From contig NZ_BAZX01000002.1 in NCBI RefSeq assembly GCF_001310955.1, positions 248,001-312,000 of the forward strand: 64,000 nucleotides of DNA, in the 5' to 3' direction. Positions 41,052-41,701 of this stretch are shown in pieces. The stretch is from Marinifilum fragile JCM 15579 (GTDB lineage Bacteria; Bacteroidota; Bacteroidia; Bacteroidales; Marinifilaceae). The notes under the pieces were generated by a model. That model was given only the letters and a program-made list of their open reading frames with translations. It did not search any database and was not told the origin of the DNA. How positions within the stretch are numbered: position 1 is the first letter of the stretch; every line of letters starts with the position of its first letter. Position numbers and translations under genes: made by a program.

Positions 41052-41142
41052 AAAAAAGCCACCCAAATTGGATGGCTTTTCTTTTGCTCCCCCTCTAGGA
41101 CTTGAAACTATCCCGAAGCCTCGGGACTGATTAAAAGTCAGG
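41052..41142 (-). pseudogene. Displaced 3' half of tRNA-Asn plus terminator (relic)
   Basis: A mutated copy of the right-hand tRNA-Asn from its anticodon arm to its terminator. The terminator hairpin is at 41058-41078 and the acceptor/T-arm sequence at 41087-41107 is identical to the intact gene. The anticodon arm at 41127-41142 has one change that destroys the GTT anticodon. Between these, the variable and T-stem 5' bases are replaced by a perfect hairpin TCCCGAGGCTTCGGGA (41111-41126, minus-strand reading). It cannot form a tRNA. It lies at the downstream end of the GIY-YIG gene. Confidence 0.85.
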
Positions 41143-41433
41143 ATCGATCTTTTGTAAAAGATCTTTAAATATTTTCTCGCCTTCGTTTGGAATTAATAGT
41201 TTTTCAATGAATTTACGGCTTTTCATGTTTTTGATTTTACGCTCCATTTTTAAGGCAATAGTTTTGTTGAGTCCTACTTCAAACCATTTTTTAAGTTCCC
41301 AAGGTATATGCTTAGAAGTGTACTTGTTGTCAATAGGATTATTGTGCATGAACATCCTTCTGGTAATATCGTTAGTATAACCAATATAGTATTTGTCAGA
41401 AGAAGTAGAGTATAGTATGTAGATGCAAAACAT
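41131..41433 (-). CDS. GIY-YIG nuclease-domain protein, tRNA-associated
   Basis: A 100-residue single-domain nuclease of the GIY-YIG superfamily. Motif: IYILYS (4-9) and YYIGYT (15-20), catalytic Arg at 25/26 (RRMFMH) and catalytic Glu64 in LKMERKIK; all are present, so it may be active. The closing codons (Pro-Asp-Phe-stop) lie inside the relic anticodon arm of tRNA-Asn, and the stop TAA equals anticodon-loop positions 36-38. The gene is flanked by direct copies of the tRNA 3' half plus terminator 420 bp apart. Known GIY-YIG proteins include homing endonucleases and UvrC-like repair proteins; a mobility role here is inference. Confidence 0.9.
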   Translation of the reverse strand: MFCIYILYSTSSDKYYIGYTNDITRRMFMHNNPIDNKYTSKHIPWELKKWFEVGLNKTIALKMERKIKNMKSRKFIEKLLIPNEGEKIFKDLLQKIDPDF

Positions 41434-41470
41434 GCATTGAATTTAGTAATAATTCTAAATTCATAAAACG

Positions 41471-41500
41471 AAAAAAACCATCCAAATTGGATGGCTTTTT
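41471..41500 (-). terminator. Terminator after the tRNA-Asn pair
   Basis: On the minus strand AAAAAGCCATCC/GGATGGTTTTTTT. A near-identical hairpin recurs 420 bp downstream beyond the GIY-YIG gene. Confidence 0.85.
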
Positions 41501-41506
41501 CTTTTG

Positions 41507-41580
41507 CTCCCCCTCTAGGACTTGAACCTAGGACCCCCTGATTAACAGTCAGGTGCTCTAACCAGCTGAGCTAAGGAGGA
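41507..41580 (-). tRNA. tRNA-Asn(GTT), copy 2
   Basis: 74 nt with a full cloverleaf. Acceptor TCCTCCT/AGGGGGA (one T-G pair), anticodon arm CCTGA-CTGTTAA-TCAGG with anticodon GTT, T-arm CTAGG-TTCAAGT-CCTAG, and discriminator G. CCA is not encoded. Sequence identical to the copy at 41628. Confidence 0.96.
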
Positions 41581-41627
41581 GTGTATAACTCCTAATATAT
41601 TTTAAACCCATTAAGAAAGGTATTTTG

Positions 41628-41701
41628 CTCCCCCTCTAGGACTTGAACCTAGGACCCCCTGATTAACAGTCAGGTGCTCTAACCAGCTGAGCTAAGGAGG
41701 A
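41628..41701 (-). tRNA. tRNA-Asn(GTT), copy 1
   Basis: 74 nt, identical to the second copy 121 bp downstream, with the same anticodon GTT and no encoded CCA. It is first in the transcript from the promoter at 41767-41797. Confidence 0.96.

Follow-up and report, generated by a model that had tools for sequence, protein, structure and literature searches.

A GIY-YIG gene between a complete and a partial tRNA-Asn

The window, a stretch of 64,000 nucleotides from Marinifilum fragile JCM 15579 (contig NZ_BAZX01000002.1), carries on its minus strand, in order, two intact tRNA-Asn(GTT) genes, a GIY-YIG open reading frame (ORF), and a partial tRNA-Asn followed by its own terminator-like hairpin. The features of the locus are as follows:

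41627..41701, minus strand: intact tRNA-Asn(GTT), first of the tandem array (ARAGORN; Rfam RF00005, 68.4 bits)
41506..41580, minus strand: intact tRNA-Asn(GTT), second copy, directly before the GIY-YIG gene (ARAGORN; Rfam RF00005, 68.4 bits)
41471..41505, minus strand: inner hairpin and T-run after the intact tRNA-Asn, terminator-like (by eye; compared with relatives G001 and G003)
41131..41433, minus strand: GIY-YIG nuclease ORF of 100 amino acids (303 bp), its last codons and TAA inside the relic (PF01541 match)
41086..41142, minus strand: partial tRNA-Asn, or relic, from about tRNA position 28 to the 3′ end (alignment; no tRNA call)
41111..41126, no strand assigned: palindrome TCCCGAGGCTTCGGGA, inserted in the relic between the anticodon arm and the T arm (pattern search; relatives compared)
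41052..41085, minus strand: outer terminator-like hairpin after the relic (matches the empty site of G001, as does the flank behind it)

The tRNA 3′ ends at 41506 and 41086 are offset by 420 bp. The sequence and the tRNA and domain scans confirmed the original prediction of an intact tRNA-Asn, a GIY-YIG gene, and a second partial tRNA copy displaced by that distance. That prediction also held that two tRNA 3′ halves bound the unit, a description we abandon, as a partial copy is found on one side only and the other side is a complete tRNA. The intact tRNA-Asn at 41627 to 41701 was absent from the earlier description.

The relic aligned to the intact tRNA-Asn and its 3′ flank with 93% identity over 61 positions (E=2e-19), its anticodon arm aligned as well (tRNA positions 28 to 43; E=0.009), and ARAGORN and Rfam scans of the window made no tRNA call there. 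The TAA stop codon of the ORF falls within the anticodon loop of the relic. The inserted palindrome is perfect, and the TCCCGAGGCTTCGGGA pattern matched once in the window versus a mean of 0.01 times in shuffled sequence. In relatives, the loop of the palindrome is variable and the stem is kept, with one copy in G015 being decayed. Thus, the second copy, earlier described as mutated, is not merely mutated, as it also carries an inserted palindrome. At gathering score, the Rfam scan of the window returned only the two tRNAs and no intron RNA around the ORF, which sets the gene apart from those housed in group I or group II introns. No integrase was recognized by eye among the ORFs listed for 38.5 to 44 kb, including the unit itself, where a tRNA-integrating island would carry one. 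Besides the GIY-YIG gene, two ORFs of at least 50 amino acids overlap the 420-bp unit (52 and 57 amino acids, both on the opposite strand).

The window protein matched PF01541 with an E value of 1.4e-13 and a score of 51.4 bits (curated cutoff, 22.6), placing it in the GIY-YIG superfamily. The catalytic residues of GIY-YIG nucleases are two tyrosines, a glycine, an arginine, and a glutamate, all of which the window protein possesses. Residues Y5, Y16, G18, R26, E64, and K68 were invariant in 22 aligned rows, and the same six were among the invariant columns of a 51-row alignment. An AF2 model of the protein (pLDDT 93.6) showed a GIY-YIG fold with short C-terminal helices. The nearest solved relatives by sequence were UPF0213 (E=1.9e-12) and SLX1 (E=1.4e-7), and HIGLE, SLX1, and UPF0213 led the fold comparison (best E, 1.1e-3); I-TevI was a far weaker match (sequence E, 0.008; fold E, 0.19). 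Homing endonucleases of the I-TevI and Seg types combine a catalytic domain with a separate DNA-binding module, and neither the model nor the comparisons indicated an added DNA-binding domain in the 100-amino-acid protein. We conclude that homing nucleases are more distant from the protein than UPF0213 and SLX1 are, which counts against a homing role.

Besides the window gene, three PF01541 matches were found in the genome of M. fragile, for a total of four: UvrC, a COG2827-like protein (a label assigned by motif), and a gene copy interrupted by an internal stop. The COG2827-like gene has no tRNA in its locus. The copy with the internal stop (G000:C20) lies behind a tRNA-Tyr-Gly-Tyr-Gly-Ser array, in which a duplicated tRNA-Tyr-Gly is followed by tRNA-Ser, and an uninterrupted relative of this gene follows a tRNA-Tyr-Gly-Ser array in G003.

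Small GIY-YIG genes, tRNA genes, and tRNA relics

The association between GIY-YIG genes and tRNA genes was surveyed at increasing phylogenetic distance. Among close relatives (57 genomes), 63 rows of short GIY-YIG matches were obtained, and a tRNA lay upstream on the same strand in 37, representing many isotypes at distances of up to about 2 kb. The 26 rows without such a tRNA in the locus included 14 that were COG2827-like. As controls, there was no tRNA call in the 14 COG2827-like loci, nor in 11 UvrC loci. A profile of 22 proteins was then used to search 148 genomes of the window's phylum, and at a threshold of 1e-9, 92 of the 148 were matched, with up to 21 matches per genome among the matches listed. 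The profile was built mostly from tRNA-adjacent proteins, with only 3 of the 22 (L023, L036, and L042) lacking an intact tRNA alongside, and the survey therefore favors the tRNA-adjacent subfamily.

Two samples were drawn from the best matches to the profile. The first consisted of 109 loci (29 loci and 80 regions) from 54 genomes and gave 164 rows, including duplicates from overlapping loci, that reduced to 150 unique GIY-YIG hits. A tRNA was present within 500 bp in 107 of the 150, with the gene after the tRNA in 81, before it in 26, and antisense to it in none; the other 43 consisted of 28 with a GIY-YIG neighbor, 5 with a short flank, and 10 that stood alone. Another GIY-YIG gene lay within about 700 bp on the same strand in 73 of the 150. 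In the second sample (80 named loci, 98 hits), 78 hits were tRNA adjacent, 68 of them after the tRNA and 10 before it, with none antisense and 20 without a tRNA. The two samples share no identical protein, a check made on proteins rather than genome by genome. Moreover, the phylum to which a Roizmanbacteria genome belongs was represented by 192 genomes, of which 136 were matched at 1e-10 among the matches listed, and 30 of the best loci gave 32 rows, with the gene before a tRNA in 22, after it in 4, antisense in none, and without a tRNA in 6. One of the 22 rows repeats the gene of L409, such that 26 of the 32 rows, or 25 of 31 genes, were tRNA adjacent. When the three samples were pooled, all 210 genes with a tRNA within 500 bp were on the same strand as that tRNA.

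Outside the three samples, the layout was found at one locus of an Acidobacteria metagenome-assembled genome and at two Ignavibacteria loci, and one locus at the end of a viral contig had its tRNA antisense. In L206 (G109:C34:5800-11000), eight GIY-YIG matches follow each other at spacings of about 340 to 390 bp, and the 5.2-kb locus gave no confident tRNA call.

To look for partial tRNAs, 150 nonredundant units were assembled from the first and second samples, a set distinct from the 150 survey hits in that units with a tRNA more than 260 bp away, repeated proteins, and ORFs of fewer than 55 amino acids were dropped. The gene follows the tRNA in 122 units and precedes it in 28, and the tRNAs represent 17 isotypes and 30 anticodons. 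In 131 of the 150 units, the same tRNA was matched again beyond the nuclease, on the side away from the intact tRNA, at an E value of 1e-3 or less; when tRNAs of other isotypes were swapped in as a control, a far-side copy was detected in 56 of 450. In the Roizmanbacteria phylum, a copy of the same tRNA was found at an E value below 1e-3 in only 13 of 25 tRNA-adjacent genes, with one more at about 0.001. We conclude that the association of GIY-YIG genes with partial tRNAs, for which the original prediction had proposed a search across Bacteroidota, is general in the surveys.

The units take two mirror forms. In the first form, which is that of the window, the tRNA lies upstream of the gene at a median distance of 51 bp, and its 3′ part is repeated behind the gene, in many units together with a terminator; the ORF ends within the relic in 69 of 108 such units. 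In the second form, the gene reaches or overlaps the 5′ end of the intact tRNA, and a 5′ part of the tRNA is found ahead of the gene. Half of the ORFs in the second form (14 of 28) terminate within the intact tRNA, and for 12 of these the stop codon is TAG, with five TAG stops at tRNA position 8 and five at positions 21 to 22. In the 131 units used for the boundary and palindrome counts, the start of the 3′ relics ranges over tRNA positions 1 to 60, with one at 79, and the 5′ relics end between positions 15 and 82. Because the relic boundaries are scattered, there is no single target segment, and a fixed target site was rejected. Thus, the segment from anticodon to terminator, once proposed as the target, does not hold in general, and the mirror form repeats the 5′ part instead.

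The nucleases are sorted by the tRNA that they adjoin. On a tree of 169 proteins, isotype required 51 changes, compared with 123.9 in shuffles, and none of 200 shuffles was as low; the tree includes five COG2827-like outgroup rows, is based on few columns, and has contributions from related rows at orthologous loci. The low number of changes indicates that the nuclease lineages are specialized by tRNA isotype. Within the Asn lineage, dN/dS was 0.08 to 0.28 in the 17 pairs, of 21, for which dS was usable, and we conclude that this lineage is under purifying selection.

Insertions such as the palindrome in the window occur in other relics as well, about a third of which have palindromes. An insertion of at least 8 nucleotides was present in 58 of 131 relics, and 42 of the 131 had an insertion that folds at −4 kcal/mol or better. 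Folding insertions were located in D, anticodon, or T loops in 36 of 47 cases versus 20.5 expected (p=4e-6), a statistic that includes some nonindependent units and gaps whose position may be off by a few bases. The palindromes (window positions 41111 to 41126, L080, L096, L090, L153, and others) often occupied the D loop of 5′ relics and, in 3′ relics, the T loop, and some were double hairpins. The palindromes are not exclusive parts of the unit, as CCTGCCTNCCGGCAGGCAGG was also found elsewhere, with 13 forward matches in G063 and none for the reversed control. Similarly, TCCCGANNNNTCGGGA occurs at eight sites in the M. fragile genome (control, 1), only one of which is within a tRNA relic. 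One TCCCGANNNNTCGGGA palindrome, at G000:C10:30291-30306, lies about 260 bp after the COG2827-like GIY-YIG gene of L001, which is a non-tRNA locus. The palindromes could be mobile and favor loops, they could disrupt homology or tRNA processing, or they could be nonautonomous partners of the nuclease unit.

Presence and absence at orthologous tRNA loci

The window unit lies at the kbl/tRNA-Asn locus, which was viewed in 30 relatives. A tRNA-Asn array was present in 17, two of which (G002 and G004) were omitted because of a contig end; of the remaining 13 loci, 12 had no tRNA and one (G027) had a single tRNA-Asn on the opposite strand. Among the 15 taxa retained, the nuclease gene was present in nine and absent from six, and complete tRNA-Asn copies numbered two to five in the former and three to four in the latter. 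Behind the terminator of the relic, the window sequence matches that behind the last tRNA-Asn of G001, a member of the same genus in which the site is empty. The outer terminator and its flank match the empty site, whereas the inner terminator differs; the tRNA part is too conserved to separate foreign from native sequence. G011, which is empty at this locus, keeps a weak relic of 70% identity. The presence/absence label required six changes on the kbl tree, and for that reason gain and loss are not separable at this locus; the patchiness could reflect losses by recombination between the repeats.

At the yqeY/tRNA-Arg(TCG) locus, for which 30 loci were examined from 51 matching genomes (58 searched), the tRNA was present in all 30, and a nuclease lay between yqeY and the tRNA in three (G085, G283, and G250). 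G283 is a near sister of G085, with yqeY 95% identical. As 27 of the 30 loci lack the nuclease, gain is favored here. Thus, at both loci the gene is present in some relatives and absent from others at one and the same site, as would be expected of homing endonucleases of the I-TevI and Seg types. The original proposal of insertion at a tRNA survives in part: one tRNA is whole, its 3′ end is displaced, and the outer flank is that of the empty G001 site, but the target segment is variable.

Several loci showed further features. In G250, no relic match to its own tRNA was found at an E value of 0.01 or less; by eye, its 5′ relic looks more like the G085 type of tRNA-Arg found in other species than like the tRNA downstream of it, which hints that gene and relic traveled together. 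In the nuclease-less G256, tRNA positions 1 to 16 (16 bp), a 17-bp gap, and then a nearly complete inverted copy lie upstream of the tRNA-Arg, possibly a snap-back-like scar where relatives hold the nuclease. A GIY-YIG match 424 bp behind the tRNA-Arg in G262 was full of stops with 28% identity and was taken as noise, and four other weak GIY-YIG matches at yqeY loci were on the opposite strand and at least 800 bp away.

One initially promising signal of horizontal transfer, an apparent co-conversion, was rejected. G012 and G023 were about 99% identical over about 3 kb around the unit against a background of 80%, but the signal failed an 80-kb control, in which median window identity was 0.943 and 75 of 156 windows were at 0.95 or above. 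A related finding in the same pair (dS of 0.000 for the GIY-YIG gene and 1.64 for kbl) falls with that control. These two genomes, of one genus, form a fine mosaic of near-identical and roughly 80% identical stretches, which suggests heavy recombination or an assembly problem.

A candidate homing-like element and related systems

We favor the interpretation, with a probability of roughly 0.6, that the unit is a minimal chromosomal homing-like mobile element in which one small GIY-YIG gene inserts at or next to tRNA genes and comes to lie between a complete tRNA and a displaced partial copy. Speaking for it are the layout, its recurrence at 17 isotypes and in several phyla, the presence and absence of the gene at two orthologous loci, the sorting of lineages by isotype, the purifying selection in the Asn lineage, the tandem copies, and the lack of tRNAs at the COG2827-like and UvrC control loci. 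The complete tRNA beside the element is presumably still working. We infer from sequence that the protein would cleave DNA, what it would cut, and that cleavage would drive spread. In the mechanism we envision, the nuclease would cut an unoccupied tRNA gene. Repair templated by an occupied copy, or else a duplication made on the spot with errors, would then leave the nuclease gene beside a restored tRNA, and the displaced tRNA fragment would subsequently decay. Against homing, the complete tRNA beside the element and the tandem tRNA copies should remain targets. The widely varying relic boundaries, the GIY-YIG hits without a tRNA, and the lower number of relics in the Roizmanbacteria phylum also count against it, as do the missing relic match in G250, the weak relic at the empty site of G011, and the antisense tRNA of the viral-contig locus. 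More tentatively, and at somewhat less than even odds, the units may constitute a cross-phylum class of single-gene mobile elements on tRNA genes, with lineages tuned to isotype, one full tRNA kept, and palindromes as possible nonautonomous partners. Judging from the SLX1-like fold, the nuclease of such a class would not read a long sequence but would recognize the hairpin or cruciform that an RNA gene forms in DNA.

The rival to take most seriously, although we consider it unlikely, is local amplification instead of homing, in which the nuclease would promote tandem duplication of tRNA segments, relics would be by-products of unequal exchange, and the benefit would be a change in tRNA copy number. 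The same-strand GIY-YIG neighbors of 73 of 150 hits fit amplification, as do the arrays of two to five tRNA copies that precede the gene in several loci and the amplification of a tRNA-Tyr segment by SegB in phage T6, as described in the available portion of PMC13096335. Amplification alone, however, leaves unexplained the reach of the gene to 17 isotypes and the site that is empty in 27 of 30 congeners. Moreover, tRNA-Asn arrays are as large without the gene (three to four copies in six taxa) as with it (two to five copies in nine taxa).

Considerably less probable is a resident function linked to the tRNA, such as processing or quality control, with the gene cotranscribed with the tRNA and the relic incidental. 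The shared strand of all 210 tRNA-adjacent genes in the three samples and the purifying selection would be expected of such a function, but patchy presence within genera, tandem and broken copies, up to 21 matches in one genome among the matches listed, and the far-side match to the same tRNA in 131 of the 150 units argue against it. We find it hardly credible that the relic is a decayed tandem tRNA copy beside an unrelated GIY-YIG gene or that the unit is the remnant of a larger tRNA-integrating island. Arrays do vary, with two to five complete tRNA-Asn copies among 15 relatives, but the layout recurs with different tRNAs and in different phyla, COG2827-like and UvrC loci lack a nearby tRNA, and no integrase was recognized by eye among the ORFs of 38.5 to 44 kb. 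A decayed copy with no wider link between GIY-YIG genes and tRNA ends was the outcome named at the outset as fatal to the prediction, and the survey contradicts it, as the association is general.

In a literature search judged by title and abstract, with few subscription papers and preprints covered, no description was found among the papers listed of GIY-YIG genes embedded in bacterial chromosomal tRNA genes; one paper only lists a GIY-YIG protein among transferred genes in the portion of its text that was available (PMC12455944). The recurrence of the layout beside many kinds of tRNA in distantly related bacteria points to a single-gene mobile element that has drawn little notice and that resides in tRNA genes while leaving them intact. 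If this reading is true, a selfish element of only about 300 to 450 bp is common in the tRNA genes of Bacteroidota, Patescibacteria, and others, one that would be a natural case of an element keeping an essential RNA gene whole. It would also connect GIY-YIG nucleases with arrays of tRNA genes in a way that can be tested, explain why annotations contain fragments of tRNAs and ORFs with odd ends, and pose the puzzle of how the nuclease spares the complete tRNA target left alongside.

Islands that integrate into tRNA genes at att sites duplicate an end of the host tRNA, and the tRNA stays whole. In contrast to such islands, the unit here is 420 bp with no integrase recognized, and in the mirror form it is the 5′ end that is repeated. 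The structure-specific nucleases UPF0213 and SLX1/HIGLE, nearest by sequence (UPF0213 and SLX1) and among the top folds, are not known to be mobile. GIY-YIG insertions in the rRNA genes of CPR bacteria may be a related habit, as they too are GIY-YIG ORFs in nonintron insertions of structural RNA genes (PMC11270868). According to the available portion of that source, CPR rRNA insertions of all kinds lie mostly at the tops or bases of stem-loops, and those with GIY-YIG ORFs were judged to fall outside spread by homing. They differ from the units here in that the host is rRNA rather than tRNA and they are reported as sparse, and that portion of the source showed no partial-gene duplication.

Of the nucleases linked to tRNAs, phage SegB comes closest (PMC13096335; PMC2988022). 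The segB gene of T4, like the gene here, is a GIY-YIG gene on the tRNA strand that adjoins tRNA genes and lies between them; segB measures 666 bp versus 303 bp for the ORF of the window. T4 segB was also considered as a relic carrier, and no tRNA-Arg or tRNA-Ile relic was found beside it. In phages, homologs of SegB are found alongside tRNAs of many isotypes, and the SegB protein brings about amplification of a segment (PMC13096335). The window protein had no match in 50,697 phage records, one of its relatives had four weak matches there, and viral contigs held at least one locus of the family; the carriage by phages that marks SegB-like genes was thus not found for the window gene in those records.

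The fungal mitochondrial mORFs, described for Allomyces atp6 and for Glomus atp6, atp9, cox2, and nad3 in the available portion of PMC3630166, share more of the arrangement. As here, an endonuclease ORF lies near the end of a gene, a new end is supplied, and the native end is displaced behind the ORF, and the mORF of Glomus atp9 encodes a GIY-YIG protein (PMC3630166). According to the same portion, mORFs reside in mitochondrial protein genes and mostly encode LAGLIDADG proteins, whereas the hosts here are bacterial tRNA genes, the GIY-YIG protein is about 80 to 100 amino acids long, and a mirror form repeats the 5′ end. The order of complete host gene, ORF, and displaced end was nonetheless found both in the window and generally. 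We conclude that, among described systems, fungal mitochondrial mORFs follow the closest logic.
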